Positions 9,255 to 49,402 are shown, counted from the stretch's first letter. The stretch: 64,000 nucleotides of DNA from Methanosarcina sp. DH2 (GCF_020804225.1 NZ_WJBI01000020.1:1-64000), one strand, 5' to 3'. A program made the numbers and translations. Notes: generated by a model from the letters alone, not told the origin.

Positions 9255-9929
9255 TGATGCCTGGCAGCTTAGATACCCTCAAAGCTGACCGGGGCTGACG
9301 GAAAAGGCATCAGGGATCTTATAGGAATAGAGGGGAATTAGCCTGTAAGTACTGGAACGAGTTTTCAAAGGCTATTCCAAAGGAATATGTTTTTTGTTCC
9401 AGGATAGATCAGTACAGAAGATCTGCAGGACCTGGGTATATGGTGAACACCATGCTGAATTATGGCTATTCTCTGCTTGAATCCGAATGCCTTAGAGCCG
9501 TTAATTCTGTGGGTCTGGAGCTCATGTAGGGTTCTTGTATGAAATGACCCCAAGCAAAAACAGCTTAGCCTATGACTTTCAGGAATCTTTCAGGAATCTT
9601 TCAGGTTCCCTGTAGATCTGTCTGTTATCGGCCTGGTTGAAAGTGGGGTTATGGAAACTAAGGATTTCCTAAGGACAGAAAATTACAATCTCAGGCTAAA
9701 GCCTACAGGAGTCAGGAAGATTGTTAATGAGTTTTCCAATACGCTGAATAAAAAGGTAAGTTATCAGGGAAAAGAAAGTACCTGGAGTTATGTTATTTTT
9801 CTGAAGGTAAAGGGGTTAGCCCATTACCTCACAAGCAAAAAGGAAAAACTGGATTTTGTTAAGCCTGAGTATGAGATTGAGAGAATTGATTCCTATGACA
9901 TAAGGCAAAAGATGTATGTGAATTTTTAG
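9255..9929 (+). pseudogene. cas1: Decayed casposon-type cas1
   Basis: Broken frames align with the intact casposase at 16893-18119. Examples are KYWNEFSKAIPKEYVFCSRI followed by DQYRR, NTMLNYGYSLLESECLR, and (9651-9929) TENYNLRLKPTG, VNEFSNTLNKKV and KGLAHYLTSKKEKLDFV. Several stops and frameshifts interrupt it, the region around the catalytic His is damaged, and the C-terminal helix-turn-helix is missing. The copy stops at an IS630 remnant. I take it as the fossil of an earlier casposon; a CRISPR-type cas1 is less likely given the close match to the casposase. Confidence 0.8.
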
Positions 9930-11220: not shown

Positions 11221-11328
11221 ATGCTGAAAAAATTACTACTTTCTGGTTTTATTTATTCATCAGAAAGAATGAGACTTTTTATAAAAGATTCTTGTAATTA
11301 TAAATGTTTTTTTTGTTATTCTTGTTAG
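11221..11328 (+). pseudogene. N-terminal stub of a radical SAM protein
   Basis: 35 codons from an ATG end in MRLFIKDSCNYKCFFC, YSC and then a stop. The C-x3-C-x2-C spacing within D-x-C-N-x-x-C-x-x-C is the 4Fe-4S site of radical SAM enzymes. No continuation is visible downstream, so this is a truncated gene. Confidence 0.45.
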
Positions 11329-11413
11329 GGCAACTTTATGAAAAACAGGGATTGTGCATGACCCTTAAACATGCGTTGCGTTTTTTTGACTTACCTATAA
11401 CCCATGAATTTGG

Positions 11414-11444
11414 TGCGAGGGGTGGAATTCGGACTACAAAATCC
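11414..11444 (-). pseudogene. Degenerate tRNA-Leu 3' end (attachment-site remnant)
   Basis: TGCGAGGGGTGG here matches the 3' acceptor/T-arm region of the tRNA-Leu fragment at 24763-24819 in the same orientation, followed by a partly matching ATTCG ... AAATCC. A weaker match (GAATTCGGACCTGCGAATTC) lies at about 12052-12071. Both may mark old integration events. From 11451 to 12192 there is otherwise only a doubtful 66-codon frame at 11850-12050. Confidence 0.4.
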
Positions 11445-12192
11445 GTCTTATCACTATCTATCCCGGCATAATATCATCGCTTTGGCTGTGTCAGTTGTAT
11501 TTATCTTTATCTTTATGAATTTGTTATATATAAGTGGAATAAAAAGAACGAGGAGAATAGATTATTAGTAGAGTTCACTCTAAACTAAAATTTGCTTCTT
11601 AATTAATCCCTTTTCTAATTAAATCATTAAATAAAATAATTTAGCGCCTTCTACTATCGGCAATAATGACAGATATCAAGAATTACGTTCATCTTTTATT
11701 GAGTAAAAATCTAATGAATGGCAAATTTGTTGACAAGACTGTTGGCCACATTAAGACAATTACATTGACGCCAATTCTCAGCACATTAATCCCGGTCTAG
11801 TTCCTCCTATGAATGGCACTTGAGGCTAAATTGAAAATACTTAAAAATAATGCAATATTCCATAAATTCAGAATATAATCATGAAATAAATGGAAATGAA
11901 TCAGTTTATGACTCCTTATTGGTATCAAAAGAGAAGTTAATTTTGTCTATGGCATTTACAAAAAATAATGGCTGTACAAAAATTTTGCATTACTACACAA
12001 AAAATTCGAGTTACCAGTACCATATCCCTTTTAAAAAATTAGATGGATAGAATTCGGACCTGCGAATTCCTTTAATAAAACCTTAATCCAATCATGTTCG
12101 GCCTGGCAAATAACCCTCGCATAATCTGTTCGTAAGTGCTTTTTAAGTAATTGAAATAAGATACAGCCTTTTGAATAATTTCCCAAAATTTG

Positions 12193-13302: not shown

Positions 13303-13316
13303 CAAAAACAGATGCG
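13303..13316. repeat. Casposon target-site duplication, left copy
   Basis: CAAAAACAGATGCG directly abuts the left terminal repeat and recurs exactly at 24753-24766 next to the right terminal repeat. The 14-bp length matches what is known for casposons. The right-hand copy overlaps the 3' end of a tRNA-Leu fragment. Confidence 0.9.
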
Positions 13317-13394
13317 GGGATATAGGTATCTCGAATTTTTTGTACGCTTTTGCATGAGTTATGCACAACCTCTTATTTTGGAAAGTTGCCTCAA
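13317..13394 (+). repeat. Casposon left terminal inverted repeat
   Basis: The outer 54 bp (13317-13370, starting GGGATATAGGTATCTCG) are matched by the reverse complement of 24699-24752 with one A/G difference. A further 24 bp match imperfectly and both ends share GCCTCAA at the inner limit. The high identity suggests recent activity. Confidence 0.93.
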
Positions 13395-14045
13395 ATAAAA
13401 AGTAATTTTTGTTTTCTACAATGCATATCTAAAATGTCAAATTCTTCTTTTCTATTCTGCAATACCCAAGACTCTATTATTAAAAAATAGTCAACCTGTA
13501 GTATACACAGGAACTATTAATTTTAGAGGATATTTTCTCATAAGTATAATAATTAGATCAACATGTGACAAAACAAATCTGTAAAACATTACACATAATT
13601 TATATAACAAGAGATCAACCTTTTACAAAGGTTTCAATGAAAACATTCCAGGAAATTCAAGCAAAAATAGACAGAAGAAAGAGATTAACATATAATACAT
13701 TAAGTCTGACAATTCTCTAAAATTCCCTTATGATTGGTATATAAGAGTAAAAAACCTCTTATATGAATTTTAACAAACTGATTTTAAAAATAATAATTTT
13801 GATTCAAATAGCTGCAGATTGATAGGACGATTAATTTTTTTAACAAATAAAATGGATATAGTTTAATACACTTTAAGATTTGCAGGAAAAAAAGGAAGAT
13901 TAATGCTTATTTTAAAAACCGATAACAAACAAAATCAGACAAAACTCTCTAAATTCAAAAATCATATAGAGAATCTTACAGTATGTATAAAAACAGTGTA
14001 TTAAACTAGAGAAACTTTCTAAAAGGCTATAAAAAAGAGCTTTGC
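13395..14045. other. AT-rich casposon left-end region without recognised genes
   Basis: About 650 bp of AT-rich DNA between the left terminal repeat and the first cargo gene. I see no open frame with a credible start and no clear repeats. The upstream segment 13004-13302, outside the casposon, is similarly empty. Confidence 0.5.
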
Positions 14046-14819
14046 ATGTACGAGACCATACTTAATCCTAACACAGAGAAGTATAAACTTCTAAGACTCA
14101 AAAAAAGCGATATCCTTGAGCTCTTTAGTATATTTCATGAAACATATTCTTTGAAGATAGACAATACTTCTTTTTGTGTGGATATGACAATAAAAACATC
14201 CATTGGAGAGCATAGGAAAATCAAAACGAAAGAAGGACTTGAAAAAATTTTAAATGAACATAATGATGTAAAAAGTATTTCCATTACTATTCTAATGTAC
14301 GACATAAATAATAAAGAAAGAACTTTAAAAGAAAAAGGCTTTTTCGAAGTAACATGCATTGGAAAGTTTGAGCTTAATCAGACTGAGGCAAAGCTTGGTA
14401 TTACAAGAGAGTATTATCCAACATTGGCTGCGGGTATGCAGTCACGTGTAAATAATTTATTGAGGAAAAGAGAAAGTTATTTAAATTACTTTTTTGGATG
14501 GTCAGCTGTAAGTTTCATTGGTTTATTTATCTTATTGATTGAGTATTTCTTTTTGATTTATAAACAGTTACATGGTGTTGAATCACTTATACTTCAAATT
14601 GCTTTGCTGGGATTTCTAGGAGTTTACTTTATTGGGCTAAAAAATAAGGTATATAGAGAAATGCATGTAAGATTTGATTCTCCTGAATATAATGATCAGA
14701 TAAATGAGTTTTTTTTATGGATTAGTGCTCAGATAAAAGCAAATCTGGTCCCTTTTTTATTTGGAATGTTTTCAACCTTAATAACAACATACATTGCTTA
14801 TAGATTGAAATGGATATGA
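14046..14819 (+). CDS. Hypothetical membrane protein (casposon cargo)
   Basis: 257 residues. A soluble N-terminal half of about 150 residues with mixed alpha/beta character (VDMTIKTSIGEHRKIKTKEG) is followed by two adjacent membrane helices (FFGWSAVSFIGLFILLIEYF and LILQIALLGFLGVYFIG). A cytosol-like loop and a third helix near the C-terminus (LVPFLFGMFSTLITTYIAY) complete it. No family is recognised. A soluble sensor-like domain joined to membrane helices would suit a defence or signalling role, but this is speculation. Confidence 0.65.
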   Translation: MYETILNPNTEKYKLLRLKKSDILELFSIFHETYSLKIDNTSFCVDMTIKTSIGEHRKIKTKEGLEKILNEHNDVKSISITILMYDINNKERTLKEKGFFEVTCIGKFELNQTEAKLGITREYYPTLAAGMQSRVNNLLRKRESYLNYFFGWSAVSFIGLFILLIEYFFLIYKQLHGVESLILQIALLGFLGVYFIGLKNKVYREMHVRFDSPEYNDQINEFFLWISAQIKANLVPFLFGMFSTLITTYIAYRLKWI

Positions 14820-15094
14820 GTTCTATGTATTACTATTGTGTTGAGATTAATTGGTAAAATCTACTATTTTTTTATTTGCGCTGTTACTCTTCGAAGGAAG
14901 TAAGAATATTCTTATATTATATAGAGCGATTATAATTTCAAATACATAGGGTAAGAATTTTCATTTTTTAGTTCAATCTTCTTACCTGCAGCATCTTAGT
15001 CTTGCTGCAGCCTAGATCCATATCGAGAGACAGCAAAAATCTTGATGTTTTGACAAAACATAAGGATTTGTTACGTTTAGTTTTCAATGTCAAT

Positions 15095-15223
15095 ATGCAT
15101 AATAAAAAAACGCCTATATTTTTCTTTATGCTTTTTTGCATTTACATGGTTATCGGTCAATTATTGTATATTCCCATATACTATCAAACAGAGAAGTTCA
15201 TAAAAGCTTATTATGAAGATTAG
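15095..15223 (+). CDS. Very small membrane protein (42 aa)
   Basis: From the ATG at 15095 the frame reads MHNKKTPIFFFMLFCIYMV ... KAYYED: a single hydrophobic helix with a charged C-terminus. The frame is open from a TTG at 15002, but that part lacks start signals. It may be a small partner of the preceding membrane protein. No family is recognised. Confidence 0.35.
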   Translation: MHNKKTPIFFFMLFCIYMVIGQLLYIPIYYQTEKFIKAYYED

Positions 15224-15365
15224 TAAAAAACGATAGTTTTAGAAGGGTGAACTTATTTAGTATTTTGAGGATTATTTGGAAAATAGTAACAAATCGATAA
15301 GATAACTTTTATGAAGAGTTCGTTGAAAATCAATAGTTGATATCCTTTAAACCAGGTTTAAAAAC

Positions 15366-16373
15366 TTATACTTGAGGCATACAAAATACATACTTGCGAT
15401 TATCTAGATCTAGATCTTTTACTATATTGACCATTTCTTTGAACTTTCTGTATCTCTTATCTGTTTCTTGTCTGGAAATCCCTTTTTTCAACTGCCACTC
15501 TAAATCAAAAGCAAATGCATAGTCAATTGCTGAGAGTTTCTCTTTAGTATGCATATCAATCAATTGTATCCGAGATGTAGCTAAAAGTGCAATATAACTA
15601 TGATTTTCGTAGAAAGTAATTGAGTTTTCTTTTATGTTTTCGTTATAATAAGGCTTATACAATACATTAAATTGATCAAAAGAAATGTCAGCGCAATGTG
15701 ACAATTGAGGCCCAAATTTTAATTTATTCAAATAAACCTCACTTAATTCGGGTCCATTTATAAGATAATCAATTGTTGTACATTGCCACAACATATCGTA
15801 ATTAGGCCAAATATTCATGAAATCTTCAGTGTACTCTTTTGAAGTGATATATATTTCAACGACGTTAAATTTAGGAAAATCGCTTAAGCTAAAGTCGGAA
15901 GATGATAACGGCTCTCCTTTATAAATGAGATTTCCAAAATCAAAAATATTATCATGTTCCTTTTTTTTATATATCTTTTTGTTACCCTCTTTCACTTCTA
16001 ATTTGCATAGCGGTAGAGGAAAGCAGGTATCTAGTTTAATGTCTATTATCTTTGAAGAGATGTTTCTATATTTTGAAGAATTGTTTTTACATAAACAGAC
16101 ATCGGATTTGTTATCTAGGTATTTTATGTGAACAATTGGATCCTGATCCTTCTTTTGGGCAATTAAATCCTTCTTTTTTGACGAATGATACGTTATTTCA
16201 GCTTTAGATTTAATAGAATCAATAATCTGTGGTGTTTTTTGCCCTAACTCCCATGATTTAGCTAAAAAATTGTTTCCGAGTAAACTGAATTTAAATTCAG
16301 GATATTCTCCTTTACATAATGGAACTATTCTACAAATATCTACACCATTATCAATGATGGCAATATTTTTCAT
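15366..16373 (-). CDS. Hypothetical protein (casposon cargo, 335 aa)
   Basis: A soluble protein beginning MKNIAIIDNGVDICRIVPL, with no membrane segment. It has several Cys in the N-terminal half (VCLCKNN) and a conserved-looking C-terminal half (FAFDLEWQLKKGISRQETDKR). AIIDNGVD at the start recalls the first aspartate strand of subtilisin-like folds, but the later His and Ser motifs are not evident, so I do not claim a protease. It faces away from cas1, and its AT-rich codon use resembles the other cargo. Confidence 0.6.
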   Translation of the reverse strand: MKNIAIIDNGVDICRIVPLCKGEYPEFKFSLLGNNFLAKSWELGQKTPQIIDSIKSKAEITYHSSKKKDLIAQKKDQDPIVHIKYLDNKSDVCLCKNNSSKYRNISSKIIDIKLDTCFPLPLCKLEVKEGNKKIYKKKEHDNIFDFGNLIYKGEPLSSSDFSLSDFPKFNVVEIYITSKEYTEDFMNIWPNYDMLWQCTTIDYLINGPELSEVYLNKLKFGPQLSHCADISFDQFNVLYKPYYNENIKENSITFYENHSYIALLATSRIQLIDMHTKEKLSAIDYAFAFDLEWQLKKGISRQETDKRYRKFKEMVNIVKDLDLDNRKYVFCMPQV

Positions 16374-16558
16374 ACTTTAAATTATTATGTAATATATATT
16401 GAAGTTTGGGGATACTTGTTGGTCATGGTGCAAAAATAATATTTTATCAGTTTGAAAGATATTAGATTAAATTGAAAACACAGGACTTCACTAGATCTTA
16501 CACCATGTGTTTATCCTTGGTAACAGGTAAAAGTTTCATATTAAATTATTTTTTCTTC

Positions 16559-16729
16559 AAGAATAAGCAACCCTGCACTTATAACTACATGTTTCTTTTC
16601 TGGAATTCGAAGTCTTGAAAGGCTGATTGCAGTTTTTACACAACTTCTTAATCAGAGCTCCCCCTCTTCCTTGTGTATGCTTTTCCTGACTTCCTTGTTG
16701 GCTTTTCTTAGGGCTTGTGTATAAAACCT
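16559..16729 (-). pseudogene. Possible small zinc-finger frame, no start codon
   Basis: Between the cargo gene and cas1, a minus-strand frame reads KKLCKNCNQPFKTSNS and ETCSYKCRVAYS to a stop at 16559. C-x2-C-x14-C-x3-C is a plausible zinc-binding arrangement. The frame opens only 56 codons with no usable start, and upstream sequence (to 16880) reads as protein-like pieces in different frames, so it is probably a decayed gene. Confidence 0.3.
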
Positions 16730-16892
16730 ATCACCTTCTCTTCTTGGACTATATGCTCCTCTCCTAGGCTGCTGACGAGTTCATTTTCTCTTCCTTGTGC
16801 TCTTTCTCTTGCTTCTGTGTGCTTCACTAAGCTTGCCTATCTGCTCTTCCTTTCTGCTATCTGTTCATAGAGTGCCTATAAATAAACCGACT

Positions 16893-18119
16893 TTAGGGGT
16901 TAACCTGACCCTCCTGAACCAAGTGTTCCCAAGCCCTAACCCTCTCTAAAACATGGCTGTTAAGACTAAATGGCTTATCGCTTTTTGCGTTTTGCTTCAT
17001 GTAATGCAGAGTCCCCTTAGAAAACCCCAACTTTTTCCAATCATAATAAGAAATACTCAGGATCTTTTGCCTTATTTCGTAGGAATCAACCCTTTGACCT
17101 CCAAACTCAGGGTTAACAAAATCAAGTTCTTTTGTTTTCCCTGCCAGGTAGTGAGCTAACCCCCTGACCTTTAAGAGCAGGGTAGGCCCCCAAGAGGTCT
17201 GTTTATCCCCATAACCTACGGCCTGGTTCAGCATGTTAGAGAACTCATTAACTACTTTCTTGGCCCCTGAACCCCTTAACCTCAGGTTGTAATTCTCAGT
17301 TGTGATAAAGTCTTTCTTATCAATTGTACCACTTTCTACCAGGTTAATAACTGCTAGGTCCACAAGGAACCTGAAAGGCTCCTGAAGGTCATAAGCTAAA
17401 CTGTTCTTGCTAGGGTTCATCTCGTGCAGAAAACCCACATGAGGGTCTAACCCCACAGTGTTTATGACCCTTAGACACTCAGATTCAAGCAGAGCGTACC
17501 CATAATTCAGCATTGTGTTAACCCTATCCCCTGAACCCATAGGCCGCCTGTACTGGTCTATTCTAGAACAAAAATCATATTTTTTAGGGATGGCTTTTGA
17601 AAACTCATTCCAGTATTTCCAGGCCAAACCTCCCTCAACCCCCATAACCTCTCTAATGGTTCTGGCCTCTTCTAATTTTTTGAGTTCATCTGAAACATCA
17701 AAATTGATTTCTGGATATCTTAGTTTAAGATAATCAAGAACCACCTGAGATTTATTAAACTTGGCCTCAATAAACTTTTTTGCAATCTCAAGCCTTTTTT
17801 CCTGATCTTCAAAAGCATGATATTGAGCAAACTTTGTTTTTACATTGGTACTTTCAGGAGGAAGCATTGTTGTTAAGAGTTTGCCATCCCAATTAAGGAT
17901 AGAAATCTGGACATTGTGTTTAATCAACCATCTAATAGCATCCAGGGTTATGTTTCCGCTTCTTCCATAAATGACAATGCTATCAATATCTATTCTTTTT
18001 GGAAAGAAAACGTATTTCTGAGGTTCATCCTCTATCAAGGAACCTCCTTCTTTAATGTGAAGTTTACCCCCCTCAACATGCATATCTATACCATACCCAG
18101 CCAATAACAGAAGTTTCAT
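16893..18119 (-). CDS. cas1: Cas1 integrase of the casposon (casposase)
   Basis: 408 residues. An N-terminal beta domain (MKLLLLAGYGIDMHVEGG ... IVIYGRSGNITLDAIRWL) is followed by the all-helical Cas1 catalytic domain. The expected metal ligands are present: E162 (GVEGG), H232 (FLHEMNPS) and E247 (DLQEPFR). Unlike CRISPR Cas1, it has a C-terminal extension of about 70 residues (KKLGFSKGTLHYMKQNAKS) that looks like a helix-turn-helix, as in casposases. Its start overlaps the stop of the upstream gene (18116). It should catalyse staggered integration giving the 14-bp duplication. Confidence 0.95.
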   Translation of the reverse strand: MKLLLLAGYGIDMHVEGGKLHIKEGGSLIEDEPQKYVFFPKRIDIDSIVIYGRSGNITLDAIRWLIKHNVQISILNWDGKLLTTMLPPESTNVKTKFAQYHAFEDQEKRLEIAKKFIEAKFNKSQVVLDYLKLRYPEINFDVSDELKKLEEARTIREVMGVEGGLAWKYWNEFSKAIPKKYDFCSRIDQYRRPMGSGDRVNTMLNYGYALLESECLRVINTVGLDPHVGFLHEMNPSKNSLAYDLQEPFRFLVDLAVINLVESGTIDKKDFITTENYNLRLRGSGAKKVVNEFSNMLNQAVGYGDKQTSWGPTLLLKVRGLAHYLAGKTKELDFVNPEFGGQRVDSYEIRQKILSISYYDWKKLGFSKGTLHYMKQNAKSDKPFSLNSHVLERVRAWEHLVQEGQVNP

Positions 18120-19021
18120 TTTTTAATCCCCCTAAGATTTGGTATTTGGCCTAGACTGCTAATTGCAGCCTCCCTAGGTTCATTCGGATCTATCGGTTTT
18201 TCACTCAAAATTTCGGCTTGGTTCCTAATTTCAGCTAAGGCATCGGCTGTTTCTATGTTCCCTTCTTTTCTCAGCCTATTTTCTAGATAAAATAACTCTG
18301 TTCTGCCTTCTTCAATTACTCTAACTGTGGACCAGTTCCAATAATCTCCTTTCTGTCTTGATAATATACCTGCTTCGACATCTTTTTTTAACTGTTCAAT
18401 AATAGCCTTATCATTGTAAAATCCAAGTAGCCAGATAACACGCCGCCTTAACATTGTATGTTTCTTATGTTCTTCTGGATATCTTTCTAACAAATCCCTT
18501 AACTTTTCCAGCAAAATTGTTTTATTCCCTGGCTTGATTCCCTTATCAATGATGTGCTTATAAAGAATTTCAAGTAGGTTATCTATCAAACAAGTATCCT
18601 TATTGTCTAAATTTAATACCAAAAGATCGAGTTGACTCGGATTCAAAACATATCTTTTCTCATATCTTTTGATTTCATCCAGCACCATTTTTTTATCAAT
18701 CTCATCCCCTGTTTTGAGAAGGTTAAAAATAGTATCAATATGCCTCGTTCTCTCGATAGAATTCTTGGCAAATACATAAGATGCCTTTCCATCTTCTTTC
18801 TCAATCCCATGTTTTTCGAGATCTTGAAGGTCCTTTAGAATCAAAATCAATTCTGCTTTATGCATATTTGCTAGCTTTCTCTCAATACTCTTTTTGCTGT
18901 ACCCTCTATCACCAGGATGACTTTCTATGAGATATTTTATCAGTTGCCCCCTTCTTACATGACCTTTTTCAGATAAGTAATCAATAACTTCAGTCTCAAA
19001 ATCTACCTCAATTTTTATCAT
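18116..19021 (-). CDS. Casposon HTH protein upstream of cas1
   Basis: About 301 residues from the ATG at 19021, which has GAGGTAA at good spacing; the frame is open further up to 19078 but without a site. The N-terminal part (VIDYLSEKGHVRRGQLIKYL, then GYSKKSIERKLANM) reads as a winged helix. The middle and C-terminal parts are helical and charged, possibly HEAT-like (LLEKLRDLLERYPEEHKK). Its stop overlaps the cas1 start by four bases, so the two are translationally coupled. It may regulate the divergent polB operon or aid integration. Confidence 0.7.
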   Translation of the reverse strand: MIKIEVDFETEVIDYLSEKGHVRRGQLIKYLIESHPGDRGYSKKSIERKLANMHKAELILILKDLQDLEKHGIEKEDGKASYVFAKNSIERTRHIDTIFNLLKTGDEIDKKMVLDEIKRYEKRYVLNPSQLDLLVLNLDNKDTCLIDNLLEILYKHIIDKGIKPGNKTILLEKLRDLLERYPEEHKKHTMLRRRVIWLLGFYNDKAIIEQLKKDVEAGILSRQKGDYWNWSTVRVIEEGRTELFYLENRLRKEGNIETADALAEIRNQAEILSEKPIDPNEPREAAISSLGQIPNLRGIKK

Positions 19022-19115
19022 ATTTACCTCATTTATTTGGTTATATGATATCATATTTAGTATCATTATATACCTCAAATATGTATATAAAAATTCTCTC
19101 CTGTTTCTTACTTAC

Positions 19116-19256
19116 ATGACAAAAAAAATCCGATTATTAGTCAGTTTGCCTCCTTACCTTAAGGAGAAACTCGAAAAGAAATCTAAAGAATTTGGATGCT
19201 CACAAGCTGAAGTTTTGAGAACTTCTTTTATAAGGCTCTTGGAGGCTGAAAGATGA
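19116..19256 (+). CDS. Small ribbon-helix-helix-like DNA-binding protein (46 aa)
   Basis: MTKKIRLLVSLPPYLKEKLE is a typical ribbon-helix-helix strand plus first helix, and FGCSQAEVLRTSFIRLLE is the second helix. The stop overlaps the start of the next gene (ATGA at 19253). As the first gene of the polB operon and divergent from the cas1 operon, it is a good candidate for the casposon's own repressor. Confidence 0.7.
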   Translation: MTKKIRLLVSLPPYLKEKLEKKSKEFGCSQAEVLRTSFIRLLEAER

Positions 19257-19891
19257 GCAGACCAAGATTTTCCAAAGACTACAGAACTTATGGGAAATGG
19301 CTCAAGGCTCAGCCCAGGGATACAAAATACGCAAAGGAGATAATCAGGAAACACAAGTTTTTCCCTGATAAAAGCCTCAGTCAGCTTAGAAATCTAAAGA
19401 TAGGAGATTTCGATCTTAGCCAGAGAGCCTGGAAAACTCTTTCAGCCCAGGATAAGAGAGATAGAAATCTGTCTCTCCAAATTTTAAGAGAAATGAGAAA
19501 AGGTGAAAATCTTTCTTCTGTACTTGAAAAGATAGGCAAAAGGACAGAATTTGCAGTCAAGCATCTTGGAAAGAACCTGTACAAGTCAGGAGGAAACTGG
19601 AAGGTTACAAAAACAGACATTATCCAGGTTAATATGCTGATCTACTCCACAGAAGGACAAAAAACAATTATTACAGCCAGTTCTAAGGATAGGTCTTTGA
19701 TAGGAGAATATTTTGCTAGCGTTCAGAAGGCAATAAAAAACAATGATCCTTCTGTTCTTGCCAAGTTTAAGGATATTCAAATAGTGGATGTTAAAGGCAA
19801 AGTGCACTACTTTGAAACTGATCTTAATAAGCTATATGAAATACTGGAAGCCCAAGAAGAACCTGAATTTTTGGAAATCTATCAGCACTGA
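19253..19891 (+). CDS. Casposon-encoded hypothetical protein (212 aa)
   Basis: A basic, soluble protein starting MSRPRFSKDYRTYGKWLK, helical in the first 120 residues, with an alpha/beta C-terminal part (IIQVNMLIYSTEGQKTIITA). No family is recognised. It is coupled to the RHH gene by a four-base overlap and followed 12 bases later by the HNH gene, so it belongs to the casposon core operon. Nucleic-acid binding is plausible from the charge. Confidence 0.65.
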   Translation: MSRPRFSKDYRTYGKWLKAQPRDTKYAKEIIRKHKFFPDKSLSQLRNLKIGDFDLSQRAWKTLSAQDKRDRNLSLQILREMRKGENLSSVLEKIGKRTEFAVKHLGKNLYKSGGNWKVTKTDIIQVNMLIYSTEGQKTIITASSKDRSLIGEYFASVQKAIKNNDPSVLAKFKDIQIVDVKGKVHYFETDLNKLYEILEAQEEPEFLEIYQH

Positions 19892-19903
19892 GAAGGCGAA
19901 ACT

Positions 19904-20236
19904 ATGGACAAAGACATATACCAAAAAAGTTTGAACAAACAGAAGAGAAAAGGAACACCTTCTCTTTGCTGTGTTATCTGTGGAGAAGATGATCCAGAAG
20001 TTATTGAAATGCATCATATTTTTGGTAGAAATAATTCAGACCAGATTCAACCTCTCTGTAAAAATTGCCATTCCAAGGTAACAGGAGAACAAAACAAGCT
20101 AAGTCCAAAAGCCAGATCTGGAACCGCTTCTCCTGAACAAAAGACAGCTTTTCAGTTAGTTTCTATTGGTGCTTTACTGAAAGAATTAGGGACAAGACTA
20201 ATTGATATTGGAAATGAGATGGTGCTAAATGGCTAA
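19904..20236 (+). CDS. HNH endonuclease of the casposon
   Basis: 110 residues with C-C-V-I-C-G-E-D, then EMHHIFGRNNS and PLCKNCHSKVT: the two CxxC zinc pairs and H-H ... N ... H of HNH nucleases. HNH nucleases are standard casposon genes. The 3' end overlaps the polB start by eight bases. Confidence 0.88.
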   Translation: MDKDIYQKSLNKQKRKGTPSLCCVICGEDDPEVIEMHHIFGRNNSDQIQPLCKNCHSKVTGEQNKLSPKARSGTASPEQKTAFQLVSIGALLKELGTRLIDIGNEMVLNG

Positions 20237-22901
20237 AGTTGCGGTTAGAGGATATACTCAAAGACTTGAGAAAAAAGGAGAGTATAGAGATTTTAGGCAC
20301 TACGATACTCCACTCAGGCATAACAGGGTACTGGTCTTTGATACTGAAACTACTGACGATCAATATCAGAATTTCAAAATAGGATATTTTCAGATCTACC
20401 AGGATGGGTTTATTCAGCATGATGGTTTATTCTATGATCCTTCTACCCTGAATGAAAGGGAAAATAGGACCATGAATACCTATTCAAGAAAACATAATAT
20501 AAGTCTGTATTCTCTGGATGAGTTTATAGATTATGTTTTTTATCCTGAAGTCTTTGGGCTTAAAACCCTCTGCACTGGGTATAACTTGGCTTTTGACCTT
20601 AGCAGGATAGCTAAAAGATCAGGTGATTCTAGGGGAAAGAATAGAGGCGGTTTCACCCTTGCGCTCTCAAATGACCCTTTCAACCCTCCTATAATAATCA
20701 AAAAGCTTGGATATTCTAACAGCTTCAAGTTTACCACCACCAAGCAGAACAAAGGAGAAAGCTGTTTCTCAGGCTATTTCCTGGATACTCAAAGACTGGC
20801 TGAAGTTCTCCTTCAATCAAACCATATTTCCCTAGAGAAAGCTGGAGAGAAACTTAATGCATCTGTTCGGAAGATGAAAGGGATTAAACACGGAAAAGTT
20901 ACTAAAAAATATATTGACTATTTGATAAAGGATGTAGAAACTACCCAGGCTGTATATGAAAAGCTTGTTAAGGAGCTCGACGTTTATCAGATCTGCATAC
21001 CTATAACAAAGATCTTTAGCTCTGCTTCCATTGGAAAACATGCTCTCGACCAGTTAGGGGTTAAACCATTCCTGGAACTGAACTCAGACTTTCCAGACTC
21101 AGTTATTGGAAATATGATGACTTCTTATTTTGGAGGAAGAACAGAATGTAAAATCAGGAAAGAGCCAACAAAGGTTACAGTTCTTGATTTTACAAGTATG
21201 TATCCTACAGTTACAATGTTAATGAACCTCTGGAAATACATCATAGCTGAAAGCTTAGAAATTCAGGATGCTACAGAAGAAACTAGAGAATTTGTTTCAA
21301 AACTGAAGCTTTTAGACCTTCAGAAACAGGATACATGGAAAAAGCTTGTTGTTATGGTCAAGATTCAGCCTGATAATAATATTTTACCTGTAAGGATGGA
21401 TTACAAAGGAAATAATACTGGCTTTAACGTAGGAATCAATTATCTGAGTTCTACCTCTGAGATGTGGTATTCTTTACCGGATGTTATAGGCTCATTTCTT
21501 CTTACTGGCAAAGTTCCAAAGATCATAGAGGCTGTAAAATTTGTTCCTAAAGGAGTACAGATGGGGTTAAGAAAATCCAGGATTCTTGGTGTTGATATTG
21601 ATCCATCAAAGGATAATATTGTTCAGATTCTTGTAGAAGAGAGGCAGAAGATTAAGGAAAAGTCAAAAAAGGCAGATAAAAATGATCCTGAACTTCAGCA
21701 TCTATCAAGCAGAGCTCAGGCTATCAAGATCCTTGTAAACGCTCTCAGTTATGGAATCTTCATTGAACTTAACCCAGAAGATAAGAAAAGTGAGTTTCAG
21801 GTTTATGGGCTTGATAATTTTGTTACAAAGGAAAACAGGTTTGAGAAGTCAGGGAAGTATTTTCATCCTCTCCTGGCTGTTATGATTACTTCAGGAGCCA
21901 GGCTTTTCTTAACAATGGCTGAAGCCAGGTTAAAAGAACTTGGAACAATTCACGCTTACATGGATACTGATTCAGTATTTGTTCCTCCTGAAAAGGCTCA
22001 GAAGCTTGCAGAGTTCTTTCAGCCTCTCAACCCTTACAACATAGAGATTCCATTGCTTAAACCTGAGAAAAAAGATCTCTGGTTTTATGGTATTGCTTCT
22101 AAAAGGTATGCTCTGTACTACTATGAAAATGGAAAAATCAGGTTTATGGAAGATGAAAGGTCTTATAAGCTTCATGGGCTTGGGCATTTAACAAACCCAT
22201 TTCCTAATTCAGTTGAAGATTGGCAGGCTGAAATCTGGCAGGATATTCTTAAACTGCATTATGGGCTAACTACTGGAAGGGATATTGAAGAGAAGTATTC
22301 TAGCCTTTATGCGATTTCCAGGCTTACTGTTAGTACTTCCAATGTGTTGAACAGGTTTAAGAAATTGAATGAGGGAAAACACTGGAAAGAACAGATTAAG
22401 CCTTTTAATTTCTTCCTTGTAGGATTCCAGGCAATTGAAGAAAATGATACAGCTGTTAAGCCTCTGGCTCCTTTTACTAAGGATTATCAGAAGATAGTTT
22501 ATGAGCCGTTTATTGATTATGAAACTGGAGAAACTAAGGAAGGATCTCAATATTTCAAACCATTGAGTAGAACTATTTTGCAGTACGTTGAGCATATGGA
22601 AAATAAGTTTGAAGGAGATATAGGAGTTTTAGAGAGAAAACATGTTCAGGCGGATGATTTATTCTACATAGGGAAAGAAGCCAACAACATTGAGGATCAG
22701 TCTTTAGATGTTACTGGGGCACAAGTGTTCATTAATCAGGAAGAGATTAAGCAGAAGATTTTAGCAATAACACCTGAAGAACGCCGGAAAATAGGAATTA
22801 GTAGAAGTGAACTAGGCTATCTTAAGAAAAATGCAAAAGAGGGAACGTTAAATTTCAACACTAAAAATGTGAGAATAATTACAGAATATTATAGCTCTTA
22901 A
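20229..22901 (+). CDS. polB: Family B DNA polymerase of the casposon
   Basis: 890 residues. The 3'-5' exonuclease motifs are present: VFDTETTDD (Exo I), YNLAFDLSRIA (Exo II) and YLIKDVETTQAVY (Exo III-like). The polymerase motifs are also present: DFTSMYPTV (A, about residue 320), KILVNALSYGIF (B, about 500) and YMDTDSVFV (C, about 579). Length and spacing match casposon PolB. The C-terminal end (EERRKIGISRSELGYLKKNA) closely resembles the C-terminal HTH of the casposase, so the two proteins may share a DNA-binding module. It is expected to replicate the excised casposon. Confidence 0.93.
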   Translation: MAKVAVRGYTQRLEKKGEYRDFRHYDTPLRHNRVLVFDTETTDDQYQNFKIGYFQIYQDGFIQHDGLFYDPSTLNERENRTMNTYSRKHNISLYSLDEFIDYVFYPEVFGLKTLCTGYNLAFDLSRIAKRSGDSRGKNRGGFTLALSNDPFNPPIIIKKLGYSNSFKFTTTKQNKGESCFSGYFLDTQRLAEVLLQSNHISLEKAGEKLNASVRKMKGIKHGKVTKKYIDYLIKDVETTQAVYEKLVKELDVYQICIPITKIFSSASIGKHALDQLGVKPFLELNSDFPDSVIGNMMTSYFGGRTECKIRKEPTKVTVLDFTSMYPTVTMLMNLWKYIIAESLEIQDATEETREFVSKLKLLDLQKQDTWKKLVVMVKIQPDNNILPVRMDYKGNNTGFNVGINYLSSTSEMWYSLPDVIGSFLLTGKVPKIIEAVKFVPKGVQMGLRKSRILGVDIDPSKDNIVQILVEERQKIKEKSKKADKNDPELQHLSSRAQAIKILVNALSYGIFIELNPEDKKSEFQVYGLDNFVTKENRFEKSGKYFHPLLAVMITSGARLFLTMAEARLKELGTIHAYMDTDSVFVPPEKAQKLAEFFQPLNPYNIEIPLLKPEKKDLWFYGIASKRYALYYYENGKIRFMEDERSYKLHGLGHLTNPFPNSVEDWQAEIWQDILKLHYGLTTGRDIEEKYSSLYAISRLTVSTSNVLNRFKKLNEGKHWKEQIKPFNFFLVGFQAIEENDTAVKPLAPFTKDYQKIVYEPFIDYETGETKEGSQYFKPLSRTILQYVEHMENKFEGDIGVLERKHVQADDLFYIGKEANNIEDQSLDVTGAQVFINQEEIKQKILAITPEERRKIGISRSELGYLKKNAKEGTLNFNTKNVRIITEYYSS

Positions 22902-22942
22902 ATGCAAAAAATAATCAATATACCTAACGTCTTAATTATTCT

Positions 22943-24493
22943 TTAAAGTAAAAGCCCTTTTGCTATTTCAAGATTATTTTGAGTCGTTGCATAGTCAAGT
23001 GGATATTTCTCAATTGTATAAACTTTTAGAGCCTCTTTGTAGGCATTAATAGCATTTTGAGCATTAGTTTCCTTATCTCTAACCTCAGCTAAAGTCATAT
23101 ATGCATTTCCAAGATTATATTGAGTACCTGCATAGTTAAGTGGATATTTCTCAATCGTATAAACTTTTAGAGCCTCTTGATACGCATTAATAGCGCTTTG
23201 AGCATTTACTTCCTGATCTCTGACCTCAGCCAAAAGCCTGTATGCAATTCCAAGGTTATTTTGAGCCTTAGCATATTCAATTGGATATTTCTCAACTGTA
23301 CGTATTTCTAGAGCTTTTTGGAAGGCATTAATAGCATTTTGAGCATTAGTTTCCTTATCTCTAACCTTAGCTAAAGTCACATATGCATTTCCAAGATTAT
23401 TTTGAGTATATGCATAGTTAATTGGATATTTCTCAATCGTATAAACTTTTAGAGCCTCTTGATAGGCATTAATAGAATTTTGAGCATTTACTTCCTGATC
23501 TCTGACCTCAGCCAAAAGCCTATATGCACTTCCAAGATTATGTTGAGTCATTGCATATTCAATTGGATATTTCTCAACTGTACGTATTTCTAGAGCTTTT
23601 TTGTAGGCATTAATAGCTTTTTGAGCATTAGTTTCCGTATCTCTAACCTCAGCCAAATCAGAATATGCATTTCCAAGATTATTTTGAGTATTTGCATATT
23701 CAATTGGATATTTCTCAACTGTACGTATTTTTAGAGCTTCTTGGAAGGCATTAATAGCATTTTGAGCATTAGTTTCCTTATCTCCTACCTCAGCCAAAAG
23801 CCTGTATGCACTTCCAAGATTATTTTGAGTCATTGCATAGTCAATTGGATATTTTTCAGGTGTATATAATTCTAGAGCTTTTTGGTAGGCATTAATAGCG
23901 TTTTGAGCATTTGCTTCCTTGTCTCTAACCTCACCTAAACGTACATATACATTTCCAATACTATTTTGAGTATTTGCATATTCAATTGGATATTTCTCAG
24001 GTGTATATATTTCGAGAGCTTTTTTGTAGGCATTAATAGCATTTTGAGCATTAGTTTCCGTATCTCTAACCTCTGACATATCAGAATATGCATTTCCAAG
24101 ATTATGTTGAGTCATTGCATACTCAGCTGGATATTTCTCAGGTGTATATATTTCGAGAGCTTTTTGGTAGGCATTGATAGCGTTTTGAGTATTTGCTTCC
24201 TTGTCTCTAATGTCAGCCAAAGAAATATACGCAGTGCCTATTTCAGCTTGAGCTAAAGCATATTTATCAGGAAATTTATTGTATGATATTTTTAGAATTT
24301 TGTTATATTCATCAATTGCTTCTTCAAATTGACCTTTATTGGAAAAAGAATTTGCTTTATCAAAGCCATAATCAATTTCTTCTTTTATTTTTTGATTATT
24401 AAGATATGAATTGATCACTAAACCTAATACTAGAACAAAAATTCCTACAATTAAAGGGGCAATATAATTTTTATGTAAATCTTCTTTTTCCAT
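22943..24493 (-). CDS. Membrane-anchored TPR protein (casposon cargo)
   Basis: 516 residues. One N-terminal membrane helix (IAPLIVGIFVLVLGLVI) is followed by about ten tetratricopeptide units of 47 residues. Each has the form NAINAYQKALEIYT, EKYPIEYA, TQNNLGNAY and EVRDKETN. Units are nearly identical in protein and DNA (141-bp period), which suggests recent duplication or gene conversion. It is a protein-interaction scaffold on the membrane, with no enzymatic domain. It is convergent with polB inside the casposon, so it is cargo rather than core. Confidence 0.85.
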   Translation of the reverse strand: MEKEDLHKNYIAPLIVGIFVLVLGLVINSYLNNQKIKEEIDYGFDKANSFSNKGQFEEAIDEYNKILKISYNKFPDKYALAQAEIGTAYISLADIRDKEANTQNAINAYQKALEIYTPEKYPAEYAMTQHNLGNAYSDMSEVRDTETNAQNAINAYKKALEIYTPEKYPIEYANTQNSIGNVYVRLGEVRDKEANAQNAINAYQKALELYTPEKYPIDYAMTQNNLGSAYRLLAEVGDKETNAQNAINAFQEALKIRTVEKYPIEYANTQNNLGNAYSDLAEVRDTETNAQKAINAYKKALEIRTVEKYPIEYAMTQHNLGSAYRLLAEVRDQEVNAQNSINAYQEALKVYTIEKYPINYAYTQNNLGNAYVTLAKVRDKETNAQNAINAFQKALEIRTVEKYPIEYAKAQNNLGIAYRLLAEVRDQEVNAQSAINAYQEALKVYTIEKYPLNYAGTQYNLGNAYMTLAEVRDKETNAQNAINAYKEALKVYTIEKYPLDYATTQNNLEIAKGLLL

Positions 24494-24675
24494 ACAATTC
24501 TATTAAGTTTCTTTTTATTAAAAGAACTAGTAAATACATTGTCTTAATAAATAGCACATTTTAAATATTTTCCATATTCTCTCAAAGTAACTGTATTAAT
24601 TTACACGTATTCAGAATAACTCTAAAATTGTAAGAAATTTATATTCATTTAAAAAAGGAACATTTTTTGATTAGG

Positions 24676-24752
24676 TTGAGGCACCTTTCTAAAAATACGG
24701 TTGTGCATAACTCACGCAAAAGCGTACAAAAAATTCGAGATACCTATATCCC
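24676..24752 (-). repeat. Casposon right terminal inverted repeat
   Basis: The reverse complement matches the left end: the outer 54 bp (24699-24752) with one mismatch, then a less conserved inner part ending in GCCTCAA. Confidence 0.93.
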
Positions 24753-24766
24753 CAAAAACAGATGCG
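24753..24766. repeat. Casposon target-site duplication, right copy
   Basis: CAAAAACAGATGCG, identical to 13303-13316. Bases 24763-24766 are also the last bases (minus strand) of the tRNA-Leu fragment, so the casposon entered at the tRNA 3' end. Confidence 0.9.
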
Positions 24767-24819
24767 AGGGGTGGGATTCGAACCCACGAAATCCTTCGAT
24801 ATCGGATCTTAAGTCTAAC
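24763..24819 (-). tRNA. Partial tRNA-Leu(UAA), 3' half only (attachment site)
   Basis: The minus strand reads anticodon loop CTTAAGA (anticodon UAA), variable-arm sequence, T-arm GGGTTCGAATCCC and acceptor CCCTCGCA. The 5' acceptor strand, D-arm and part of the anticodon stem are missing; the sequence diverges upstream of GTTAGA. A 3'-half tRNA beside an integrase gene (24878) is the usual mark of an element integrated into a tRNA gene. The intact tRNA should lie at the other end of that element, which I cannot find in the window. Confidence 0.75.
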
Positions 24820-24877
24820 ATCATATACGATACAAGATTTAAATAAATATTTATAGATTGTATGTAAATCACTAAGT

Positions 24878-26026
24878 ATGAGAAAATTTCCCGAGTTTAA
24901 AGAGCCAAATACTGAAATCATGAATCAATATGCTAGGTACATGAGCCTGATCGGAAAAAAGGACCGCACAATTTTTGGTGACCTCTGGAATTTGAAGCCT
25001 TTTTTTGATTATTTAGGTGAGAAGTCAGCAAAAGAAGTTACAAGGCAGGATATGGAAGACTATATTCTTCATCGAAAACAAAAAGTAGGCCCGACTACGG
25101 TACACAATGGAATAATATCCCTCCGATCCTTCTACAAATGGGCAAAAATGAATGGGGAATATTGTCTTGAGGATGATTTATTTAAAAATATCAAAACAAA
25201 GCAACCTAAAAACAATCTCCCAGTAGATGAAGTTCTTTTACCTGAAGATATCCTAAAAATGCGGGATGTAGCCAACAACCAGAGAGATAGAGCATTAGTT
25301 ATGGTCTTGTGGGATTCCGCAGTAAGGAAGGGAGAGCTTCTTAACATTAACATAGGCCACGTACAATTCGATAAATATGGTGCAGTTGTTATAGTCAACG
25401 GGAAAACTGGGAAAAGGAGAGTACGACTTATAGATTCCGTCCCTGATTTACAGCTATATTTAAATATGCATCCTCTTAGGAATGAACCCGGAGAACCTTT
25501 GTTCATTACGGATCGAAAGTACGATGGCAATTATAGGAGACTCAATGAACAAACTGTTAATAATATACTTAATGCGCTTGCCGAAAGAGCAGGACTTATG
25601 AAAAATGTTTACCCTCATGCTTACCGTCATGGAAAATTGACCTGGCTATCAAAGCAAGGGTTTAACGAGATGGAGTTAAGAATCTTCGCTGGATGGACTA
25701 AGGAGAGTAATATGCCGGCTACCTATCTCCATTTGTCAGGAGCAGATATTGAAAAGAAGATTCTTCAGAAGAGTGGAGTTATTGAAGATAAAACGGAAGA
25801 AAAACAGAAGGAGCTTAGACCTATCGAATGTCCTCGCTGCAAGACAAAGAACCCTGTAGGAGCTAAATATTGCTCAAGTTGTTCTATGATCATTGATCAG
25901 GAAACGGCAATCAAACTCGATGAGACCGAAAAAATATATAGTGAAAGCTTAAACACAATTCTAAGAGGAAAAATTGATGAAATTGTTAAGGAAAGAGTGA
26001 TAGAGATATTAAAAACTATAAAGTAA
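24878..26026 (+). CDS. Tyrosine recombinase / integrase with C-terminal zinc ribbon
   Basis: 382 residues. The N-terminal SAM-like core-binding domain (about 1-100) is followed by the catalytic domain with R150 (DSAVRKGELL), H247-x-x-R250 (HAYRHGK), W273 in the His/Trp position (AGWTKES) and nucleophile Y283 (ATYLHLSG). A zinc ribbon (CPRCKTKN ... CSSC, about 318-336) and a coiled end follow. It starts 59 bp from the tRNA-Leu fragment, so it is the likely integrase of the element to its right. Confidence 0.9.
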   Translation: MRKFPEFKEPNTEIMNQYARYMSLIGKKDRTIFGDLWNLKPFFDYLGEKSAKEVTRQDMEDYILHRKQKVGPTTVHNGIISLRSFYKWAKMNGEYCLEDDLFKNIKTKQPKNNLPVDEVLLPEDILKMRDVANNQRDRALVMVLWDSAVRKGELLNINIGHVQFDKYGAVVIVNGKTGKRRVRLIDSVPDLQLYLNMHPLRNEPGEPLFITDRKYDGNYRRLNEQTVNNILNALAERAGLMKNVYPHAYRHGKLTWLSKQGFNEMELRIFAGWTKESNMPATYLHLSGADIEKKILQKSGVIEDKTEEKQKELRPIECPRCKTKNPVGAKYCSSCSMIIDQETAIKLDETEKIYSESLNTILRGKIDEIVKERVIEILKTIK

Positions 26027-27429: not shown

Positions 27430-27969
27430 ATGAGTAGTAAAGTGTTAAAGAAAATTTGTATTGAAGTTCCTGAAGATCTTGTCCAAGCTATACAAAATGC
27501 AAGAAAAGCAGGTAAAAGATATAAAGGCGATCTATATAGCAACCCTTTAGCGTATGCAGTTGGTGCACTTGTTCTTTTGGGAACTGCAGACAAGAAAGAG
27601 GAGATTCTGAAGGAACGTCTTAAAAATATAGGGATAGAACGTAACTTACTGAATTCCGAGGAACGCTTAATATTAGAGGATCTAGAAGGGATAGAAGCCG
27701 AAAAAAAGACTAAACTAGACTATAATATTAAGAGACAACAAGAAATAAAATTACTTGCTGATAAAATCCTTGAATATTGGGATGATATTGCATTTTTTAA
27801 TAAAAAAAATTGCATTACGTATATCGTTTCGCCCTTTGAGGGAAAGCTAACAAAATCTAGAGTGGAAGCTATATTCCCGTCAGTTTATGAACCTGCTCCC
27901 TCACCTGAAAAAGCATTGACCATTGCAGCTGGCCTTTTGTATTATGACGGAGATGGGTGCAGTGAATAA
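27430..27969 (+). CDS. Hypothetical protein upstream of MCM (179 aa)
   Basis: The N-terminal 60 residues (KICIEVPEDLVQAIQNARKA) may form a ribbon-helix-helix-like or helical DNA-binding unit. The middle is a charged coiled-coil and the end is more globular (YIVSPFEGKLTKSRVEAIF). Its last eight bases overlap the likely MCM start, so the two are co-translated. It may be a replication initiator or accessory factor for the MCM, but I do not recognise the family. Confidence 0.6.
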   Translation: MSSKVLKKICIEVPEDLVQAIQNARKAGKRYKGDLYSNPLAYAVGALVLLGTADKKEEILKERLKNIGIERNLLNSEERLILEDLEGIEAEKKTKLDYNIKRQQEIKLLADKILEYWDDIAFFNKKNCITYIVSPFEGKLTKSRVEAIFPSVYEPAPSPEKALTIAAGLLYYDGDGCSE

Positions 27970-30091
27970 TGATATCTGGGAACCTACGGAAATTGGAATT
28001 AAAATTCCTCAGTTGAAAGGTCTTACCTATTTTTTAGAAACTTATTGTAAAGAAGAAATATCTGAACTTGTGATGAAATATCCACACAAAAACAGCATAT
28101 ACATAGATTTTAGAAAAGTTATACGTTTTAGTAATGGATTAAGGGAAGCTTTGGAAAATAAGTTTGAACAGATGTCTTTGAAATTACAAATGGCTTTAGC
28201 TGACGTGGATCTGATACAGTGCAGTATAAAAAAAATCAATGTAACCAAAATCAAATTTCGAATTAATGAAATACCTACAGATTACAAACAACGTTTGAGA
28301 GATCTAGGAACAAAGGAGATTGGAAAGCTAGTTTGTGTGGATGGTTTTGCTCGTGTAGTTACGAATACAGAATCTAAAGAAGTCAAAACCGCCTTTAAGT
28401 GTCTTAGATGTGGGCATATAACTTTCGTAGAACCGGATGGAAATACAAGTGAGGAGCCATATTTTTGTGAAAATACCACATGTGGAAAAAGTGGGCCTTT
28501 TAAAAAAGAGATTTCCCTTACTGAATTTGTAGACTTTCAAAGAATCATAATTCAGGAATCTCCTGATTCCACGAGAGGAACAAAAACCAGAGATATGATA
28601 ATTGAATGTGATGAAGAATTAACTAATCAGATAGAACCTGGTGAAAGAATCACAGTTATAGGTATTCTGACACTACGGCAAACAGAAAAAGATCGGAAGA
28701 AAACGGTCCATGAAAAGATAATTAAGGCTCTTTCTATTGAAAAACAAAATGTAGGATTTGATGATTATATCCTGACGGAGTCTGATGAAGAGATTATAAT
28801 AAAACTAAGCCGAGATCCAAAAATTAAAGAGAACATCATAGGAAGTATAGCTCCTTCTATTCATGGACATGACCGAATAAAAAAAGGTCTTGCTCTTCAA
28901 CTGTTTTCAGGTGTTCGAAAGATCTTACCAGATGGGACAACTGAGAGAGGAAACATTCATGCGGTATTGATTGGAGAGCCTTCTACATCAAAAAGCCAAT
29001 TATTGAGAAAGATAGTATCGCTTATTCCGAGAGGAGTTTTTTCAAGTGGTCAAACTTCAAGTGGTGTTGGGCTGACGGCTTCTGTTGTAAGAGACCCTCT
29101 CAGTGATGGCTGGATCCTACAAGGTGGAGCAGTTGTAATAGCTTCAGGTGGAATTCTTGCCATTGATGAGATCGGGCAAATTAAAGAGGAGGATAAAAGT
29201 GCGCTTCATGAAGTTATGGAACAAGGAACTGTGAGTATAGCAAAAGCCGGGATAGTTTCTAAGCTTCAAGCTGACTGTGCGGTTCTTGCAGCAGGTAACC
29301 CTAAAAAGGGATATTTTGATCGAAATGATAAAACTCAACATCCATCAGAGCAAATTGGGCTTCCTCCTGCATTATGGTCTCGGTTTGATCTCACTTTTCT
29401 TGTTTTAGATGATCCTGATCCAATTATTGATAAGGAAATTTCGAATCATATTTTACGAAATCATCTGGTTGGCGGAATGATACAGAATCGATTACACTCA
29501 AAGAATCCTATCTACACTGAAGAAAAAGTCAAAGAGGCGAAATTGGAAATTGAGGCTCCGATTTCGGAAGAGATTCTGACCAAATATATCGCATATGCAC
29601 GTACAAAAGTGTTTCCTGTTGCTACCTCCCTCGAAATAAGGGAGAGTATCCAGAATTTTTATTTAGATATTCGGAAAATGAAATCAGCTGATCCTACTTC
29701 TCCTGTACCGATAACACCTAGAAGCTTAGGAGCCTTACAAAGGCTCTCCGAAGCCAGTGCAAGAATGAGGTTATCGAATATTATTTCTGAAGAGGATGTA
29801 CAGTTTGCTATGGAAGTAATGAGGTCCTCTCTAATAGATTTAGGAATGGATGAAAACAATAGATTAGATGCAAATTTATTGAACGGACTACCTTCTCAGA
29901 GTCAGCAAGAGAAAATTGAATGTATAACGCAGACCTTAAACACAAAAAAGGGACATACTGAAGAAGAAGTGGTAGGCCTCATGAAATCATGGTATAAAAT
30001 GTCAGAAGGGGAAACAAGGGGCATAATTAAAAAACTATCTGAAAGAGGGAATATAACTAACATAAACGGACTGTTGAAGTATGTAGTGTAG
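27962..30091 (+). CDS. mcm: MCM replicative helicase encoded by the integrated element
   Basis: About 710 residues. The N-terminal domain has a zinc motif (CLRCGH ... CENTTCGK) and the AAA+ domain follows. It carries Walker A GEPSTSKSQLL (about residue 338), Walker B GGILAIDEIGQI, sensor AAGNPKKG and arginine finger LWSRFDL, with a C-terminal winged helix. I chose GTG 27962 because GGAGATGGGTG precedes it; ATG 27944 and 27953 are alternatives. MCM unwinds DNA at replication forks. Extra MCM genes in archaea often sit in integrated plasmids or viruses, which fits the integrase and att site here. Confidence 0.93.
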   Translation: MNNDIWEPTEIGIKIPQLKGLTYFLETYCKEEISELVMKYPHKNSIYIDFRKVIRFSNGLREALENKFEQMSLKLQMALADVDLIQCSIKKINVTKIKFRINEIPTDYKQRLRDLGTKEIGKLVCVDGFARVVTNTESKEVKTAFKCLRCGHITFVEPDGNTSEEPYFCENTTCGKSGPFKKEISLTEFVDFQRIIIQESPDSTRGTKTRDMIIECDEELTNQIEPGERITVIGILTLRQTEKDRKKTVHEKIIKALSIEKQNVGFDDYILTESDEEIIIKLSRDPKIKENIIGSIAPSIHGHDRIKKGLALQLFSGVRKILPDGTTERGNIHAVLIGEPSTSKSQLLRKIVSLIPRGVFSSGQTSSGVGLTASVVRDPLSDGWILQGGAVVIASGGILAIDEIGQIKEEDKSALHEVMEQGTVSIAKAGIVSKLQADCAVLAAGNPKKGYFDRNDKTQHPSEQIGLPPALWSRFDLTFLVLDDPDPIIDKEISNHILRNHLVGGMIQNRLHSKNPIYTEEKVKEAKLEIEAPISEEILTKYIAYARTKVFPVATSLEIRESIQNFYLDIRKMKSADPTSPVPITPRSLGALQRLSEASARMRLSNIISEEDVQFAMEVMRSSLIDLGMDENNRLDANLLNGLPSQSQQEKIECITQTLNTKKGHTEEEVVGLMKSWYKMSEGETRGIIKKLSERGNITNINGLLKYVV

Positions 30092-30102
30092 GGGGAACGT
30101 AA

Positions 30103-48793: not shown

Positions 48794-49078
48794 AGTTCTT
48801 CTTTCCCTCAAAAATTTGATATATAATTAAGCTTGACCGCATGTATTGTGAATTCTTGGGCACTGATCCCGTAATTACTCTCGTTCACTACTTGCAACTA
48901 TGCCGTATGTCAAGTTGTTGGTCTCCAAGTAAAAGACAAAAATTTCCATTTCCACTTTCGGATACAGTTCGTAAATTTATTTGGATTCTTGCCGCAACTT
49001 AATAAAATGTAAATGGAAATAAATAAATTAAGAGAATAAGAGTAATTAAGCAAAAGCAGAAAATTCTAATAAATTTAG

Positions 49079-49161: not shown

Positions 49162-49402
49162 CTGTTGCCAAATTACTGATTAGTCTAAATATTATCTAGT
49201 CTTCCTGATTATATCTTGAGAATTCTTTTCCTACGTTAATGGGAAATAATTTCAAATCTCCGGATTAGTTAATGCGATCAAATGCAGTAGTTTTCACATA
49301 AAACTACTGTATTTTGCTCTGTATCTCAACGGATGATCCTTGAAGAGAACAATATTCAATCAATAATAAAGTACTTTTAGGAAAACAACTGTATGATATG
49401 TT

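Follow-up and report, generated by a model that had tools for sequence, protein, structure and literature searches.

What is the element that lies between two identical 14-bp repeats in the genome of Methanosarcina sp. DH2, where did its parts come from, and does its setting beside a tRNA-Leu sequence tell us how it arrived? We analysed a window of 64,000 nucleotides of contig C17, for which a sequence-only reading had described a complete, recently integrated and possibly mobile casposon. With very little doubt, the element is an intact family 2 Methanosarcina casposon of mosaic make-up that sits on the 3' half of a tRNA-Leu(UAA) gene, apparently split by an integrase element. The casposon kind itself is known; notable here are the mosaic of two casposon lineages and the split tRNA-Leu target, and these are the parts worth the attention of specialists.

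Anatomy of the casposon

The casposon spans 11,436 bp (13317-24752) and has eight open genes (Table 1). Its left terminal inverted repeat (TIR) starts with GGGGATATAGGTATCTCG at 13316/13317 and the right one ends at 24752/24753; the 54-bp repeats show one mismatch over 55 aligned bases (98.2%), and a weaker inverted repeat runs on past them to about 113 bp. The inverted-repeat score was 111 bits, whereas 20 shuffles gave no more than 41. The target-site duplication (TSD) CAAAAACAGATGCG is identical at both ends and has no third copy elsewhere within the 64-kb window. The earlier description of 54-bp TIRs with a single differing base and an exact 14-bp TSD was thus accurate, and TIRs, TSD and gene set together uphold the call of a complete casposon.

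Table 1. Features of the casposon and of its immediate surroundings (window coordinates).
Feature	Position	Strand	Basis or remark
Older casposon cas1 remnant, with frameshifts and stops	9329..9920	+	Homology search
Decayed casposon end beside a tRNA-Leu 3' fragment	11319..11447	-	Junction search
Second decayed casposon end with a tRNA-Leu-like remnant	11997..12072	-	Junction search
Left TSD, CAAAAACAGATGCG	13303..13316	.	14 bp; final G common to the TIR start
Left TIR, 54 bp	13317..13370	+	Alignment to right TIR, 98.2% over 55 bp
257-aa protein, predicted C-terminal membrane region	14046..14819	+	Membrane call is a sequence reading
335-aa protein, without assigned family	15366..16373	-	Family searches; relatives survey
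cas1, casposase, 408 aa, C-terminal HTH	16893..18119	-	PF01867 4.9e-70; 6opm_A 2.6e-203
HTH-HEAT protein	18116..19078	-	AlphaFold2 model; likely start ATG at 19021
212-aa conserved casposon protein (p212), second putative HTH protein	19253..19891	+	Conservation; model
HNH endonuclease, 110 aa	19904..20236	+	HNH families E ~1e-3; motif reading
polB, family B DNA polymerase, 890 aa	20229..22901	+	Profile and motif search
TPR protein, 516 aa, 141-bp DNA repeats	22943..24493	-	N-terminal membrane helix by reading
Right TIR, 54 bp	24699..24752	-	Alignment to left TIR
Right TSD	24753..24766	.	Minus strand is CGCA-TCTGTTTTTG
3' half (nt 33-85) of tRNA-Leu(UAA), anticodon break, casposon target	24763..24815	-	Sequence comparison
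Tyrosine integrase of the neighbouring element, outside the casposon	24878..26026	+	PF00589

The general marks of a casposon are all present: TIRs with a flanking TSD, a family B DNA polymerase gene, and a Cas1 homologue that has its active-site residues and lies outside a CRISPR-cas locus, those CRISPR arrays that were located in the host being on contigs C25 and C26 and not on C17. This Cas1 shares 72.6% identity with the M. mazei casposase 6OPM over 401 aa, and 84% along residues 341-401; in 6OPM numbering it keeps the active-site residues E162, H232 and E247, as well as R191 and R192, which contact DNA. The cas1 gene is therefore open with its catalytic motifs, as had been claimed, and the reading of polB, HNH and both putative DNA-binding genes as open also stood.

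In PolB we found the Exo I, II and III, PolA and PolC motifs, together with a motif-B-like KILVNALSYG that did not match the canonical pattern applied. A 36-residue alignment shows that the PolB C-terminus resembles that of Cas1, such that both proteins carry similar C-terminal HTH regions. The HNH gene, a predicted endonuclease kept across other casposons, scored slightly under the Pfam cut-offs (E ~1e-3), with the CVIC, HH and CKNC motifs present. The HTH-HEAT protein was modelled with AlphaFold2 (mean pLDDT 83.6) as a winged-helix-like N-terminus followed by helical repeats, whose fold matches were mostly of the armadillo/HEAT type at E values above 0.001; on this model, HEAT repeats follow the HTH part towards the C-terminus. 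Full Methanosarcina casposons conserve the 212-aa protein, as do most other family members compared, but a PDB fold search with its fairly confident model (82.9) gave no match, so that structural support exists for only one of the two proposed DNA-binding proteins. Family 2 casposons are marked by a Cas1-like PolB C-terminus, an HNH gene and two HTH proteins, one of them with HEAT repeats (PMC4046053), and we assign the element to this family because its PolB C-terminus, HNH gene and HTH-HEAT gene fit these marks.

The cargo, which the sequence-only reading had listed as three proteins carried alongside, is uneven in its distribution. Relatives of the TPR protein recur at 63% identity within a G007 casposon region and at 61% in a Methanococcoides casposon (L053). 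Only seven other genomes out of 186 of the order encode a relative of the 335-aa protein, in one case at a distance of about 2.5 kb from cas1 remnants, and for the 257-aa protein the same 186 genomes gave no relative. No Pfam, NCBIfam or PADLOC family was found for the 335-aa protein, nor any relative in viral contigs. Among the cargo, PADLOC gave weak matches for the TPR protein alone, which hit TPR-type models and PDC-S39.

The nearest characterized systems are the M. mazei casposons (MetMaz-C1 and MetMaz1FA1A3-C2), which share the family 2 gene set, the 14-bp TSD composed of CGCA and an AT-rich part, the tRNA-Leu 3' end as target and a TIR start of GGGATATAGGTA (PMC6977970, PMC10359463), as well as a casposase 73% identical to the Cas1 described here and with the same active-site residues. 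In contrast, the matching TIRs are longer here (54 versus 31 bp), the cargo is different, cas1 and polB form a mosaic, and a half tRNA-Leu(UAA), from a split gene, is the target. By analogy with these published relatives, Cas1 would bind both TIR ends and join their 3' ends to the target with a spacing of 14 nt, spanning the tRNA-Leu 3' end (last 4 nt plus 10 nt), and host repair would then yield the 14-bp duplication; the element would be copied by PolB, and the HNH and HTH proteins are predicted to assist.

A split tRNA-Leu(UAA) and its neighbouring integrase element

In M. mazei, the target consists of the last 4 bp of tRNA-Leu (CGCA) plus 10 bp (PMC6977970). The TSD of the present casposon, read on the minus strand, begins with those same four nucleotides and overlaps the end of a tRNA-Leu 3' half, an overlap that the sequence-only reading had not noted. 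Five junctions of the DH2 genome place the TIR start exactly 10 nt past the tRNA-Leu 3' end, and others place it about there; the constancy of this register in decayed and live junctions lends in vivo support to a target rule measured in vitro.

ARAGORN called no tRNA at 24763-24815 because nucleotides 33-85 alone remain. Over its last ~50 nt, this half shows 100% identity with the tRNA-Leu(UAA) found in three congeners (G007, G009 and G022), in which the gene occupies a conserved locus with the same adjoining chromosomal genes. The matching 5' half, together with those chromosomal genes, lies on another contig of the DH2 genome (C25:782532-782573). With the 5' half on C25 and the 3' half on C17, the tRNA-Leu(UAA) gene is therefore split at the anticodon, and the casposon target, from these comparisons, is the 3' half and not an intact tRNA gene. 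The TSD plus 30 bp of tRNA is enough in vitro (PMC6977970); the 53-nt half spans this stretch and therefore should suffice, which suggests that half a tRNA gene may serve as a casposon target. No exact empty site was found in the relatives checked, the nearest case being G009, where, at the orthologous locus, an intact tRNA-Leu precedes what we read, from sequence and synteny, as a decayed TIR scar. In G007 a different casposon occupies the orthologous intact tRNA-Leu, with no integrase element between.

An unrelated tyrosine-integrase element, whose integrase gene starts 63 bp from the tRNA half, appears to have cut the tRNA-Leu(UAA) at the anticodon. The five closest integrase loci examined outside the DH2 genome (G013, G007, G004, G015 and G022; 54-72% identity) all adjoin a tRNA-Leu 3' piece, mostly broken at or near the anticodon; the piece is decayed in G007 and G004 and of the tRNA-Leu(CAA) type in G022. 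In G013 both tRNA halves are on one contig, on either side of about 33 kb (C21:14941-48220; L165, L164), and an intact tRNA-Leu(UAA) lies about 100 bp from the 5' half. A 10-bp core, GACTTAAGAT (24806-24815 in the window), and split tRNA halves are seen in both DH2 (window 24763-26026 and C25:782532-782760) and G013, with an intact tRNA-Leu(UAA) about 100 bp from the 5' half, and the two DH2 junctions imply, on our reading, a site ATGTTA-GACTTAAGAT-ATAACAT with inverted arms.

This arrangement resembles the tRNA-dependent lysogeny of mycobacteriophages (PMC10865867), and integrase elements that split tRNA-Leu through the 10-bp core could possibly represent an archaeal form of tRNA-dependent integration; a review of archaeal integrases describes integration as restoring the tRNA gene (PMC8371274). 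We propose, tentatively and aware that the odds are somewhat against it, that casposons and tyrosine-integrase elements alternate at the same Methanosarcina tRNA-Leu locus, the latter cutting at the anticodon within the core without rebuilding the tRNA and leaving a replacement tRNA-Leu. If so, each integrase round would displace a 3' half that is still a working landing pad for casposons, which would explain why many casposon remnants lie on such halves.

We also considered C17:24766-70452 as one whole integrase element ending at an intact tRNA-Leu(UAA). This reading was dropped because the matching 5' half and chromosomal flank are on C25, and because the sequence downstream of the relatives' tRNA-Leu(UAA) also adjoins the C17 copy; a later rearrangement is likely from this layout. 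Genes for an MCM helicase and a Gins51-like protein near the integrase (27923-30846) suggest that the neighbouring element replicates. Farther along, at 49078-50014, an intact tRNA-Leu(CAA) has a 203-aa integrase-like ORF about 240 bp off, a possible second element boundary. Candidate defence genes encode a DrmD-like helicase (best 1.3e-122) and a DrmMI/type IIG-like methyltransferase (1e-86) at 50680-57611, and, just past the window, a DruE-like protein of 1781 aa (C17:64582-69927, 2.1e-131).

Relatives, mosaic origin and age

The DH2 genome contains one further full casposon (C29:240462-258828) and many cas1 fragments, a tally of remnants that, drawn from Cas1, TIR and tRNA searches, is a lower bound. 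The full C29 copy keeps an exact TSD and TIRs that agree over about 31 bases, and adjoins a tRNA-Leu remnant; it stands in tandem with a dead casposon, the pair covering C29:235175-258895, and one TSD, CTTAATTTAGTGCG, is common to both. Tandem casposons are already known (PMC9939771, PMC10359463), and the polarity of this pair is the one that entry of new copies at the end nearest the tRNA would produce, by comparison with CRISPR arrays. Just upstream of the casposon described here, the dead cas1 and the two decayed end/tRNA junctions of Table 1 add remnants that the sequence-only reading had not mentioned. Matches to the query Cas1 were obtained in a search of 31 Methanosarcina genomes, 27 of which gave hits that mix high-identity casposon-like fragments with CRISPR-type Cas1 at ~28-30%. 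The best Cas1 identity found in the search for a donor copy was 84%; viral contigs yielded no casposase relative, and among the plasmid matches listed there was solely CRISPR-type Cas1, every one below 60% identity.

Comparison with seven other Methanosarcina casposons, and trees of 18 and 15 rows, gave two different sets of nearest relatives. Cas1 is closest to C29 and G007a (83-84% identity) and groups with them (support 100/99), whereas p212, HNH and polB taken together are closest to G007b, G009 and G011 (86-88%, against 70-74% to C29 and G007a) and group with these (100/100). Taken singly, p212, HNH and polB are 80-94% identical to those of the casposons of Methanosarcina sp. 2.H.T.1A.6 (L046, G011) and G009, in which Cas1 is only 72-76% identical and the p335, p257 and TPR cargo is absent. 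Conversely, the C29 copy and the G007 copy at C1:2712158 have Cas1 83-84% identical, but polB only 72-75% and HNH 50-53%; this G007 copy, at the orthologous tRNA-Leu, also has the 63% TPR relative. From these comparisons the element reads as a recombinant, with cas1 from one Methanosarcina casposon lineage and p212-HNH-polB from another. Casposons would then swap casposase and replication blocks, as seen in an apparently young and intact mosaic, and such exchange matters to the question of how one element might acquire the Cas1 of another. The CRISPR adaptation module is proposed to derive from casposons.

Could the conflict between cas1 and polB come from unequal rates or hidden paralogy and not from recombination between casposons? 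The small size of the trees and an HTH-HEAT gene too divergent for use leave this some room, but we judge it improbable: the nearest neighbours are opposite with 100% support each, AU tests reject the swapped positions in both directions (p 0.0067 and 0.0074, values somewhat optimistic because the clades were named after the identities had been seen), and DNA identity steps abruptly at ~18.9-19.1 kb, at the boundary between cas1/HTH and p212. About as improbable, in our estimation, is that the recombinant casposon was carried in on the neighbouring integrase element instead of inserting into the chromosome by itself. It does abut the tRNA half beside the integrase, and Krupovic and colleagues are said to have described, in 2016, M. 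mazei casposons inserted into other mobile elements; nevertheless, relative to the split tRNA the casposon is on the chromosomal side, outside the integrase element, and the different G007 casposon sits at its intact tRNA-Leu without any such element between.

Insertion by the casposon itself leaves its age to be considered. TIR identity was rejected as a clock: it is weak evidence of age because the casposase recognises the TIRs and selection may hold both alike. An old, immobile casposon, kept by selection on its cargo or Cas1 and with TIRs that look young since they are conserved casposase-binding sequence, would accord with the TIRs as functional sites, with the agreeing TIR bases and exact TSD of the C29 copy and with the recurrence of the TPR cargo in other casposons. 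Even so, it is an unlikely account, given that the noncoding TSD copies are identical, that the same genome holds many decayed casposons, and that none of the 30 other Methanosarcina genomes searched gave a match to the insertion together with its two flanks. Because its neighbours have rotted and the 30 congeners, most of them with rotted copies, do not have it, a young insertion is favoured, and this casposon copy is probably young, without a date. The claim of recent integration thus holds on absence from congeners and on the rotted copies, but not on the TIR identity. Current mobility is plausible by analogy with MetMaz-C1 of M. mazei Go1, whose movement in vivo has been published (PMC10359463).

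A role for host CRISPR immunity against the casposon found no support, as none of 123 spacers read from arrays on C25 and C26 matched it. Elsewhere in the genome, a TIR-like sequence (88%) at C12:2132-2187, near which neither a casposon gene nor a tRNA-Leu remnant was detected, is a possible solo TIR. Finally, C30:17050-20011 contains an HNH-like gene and a polB of casposon type that has diverged to 37-46% identity and lies in two frames, perhaps of a second casposon lineage.
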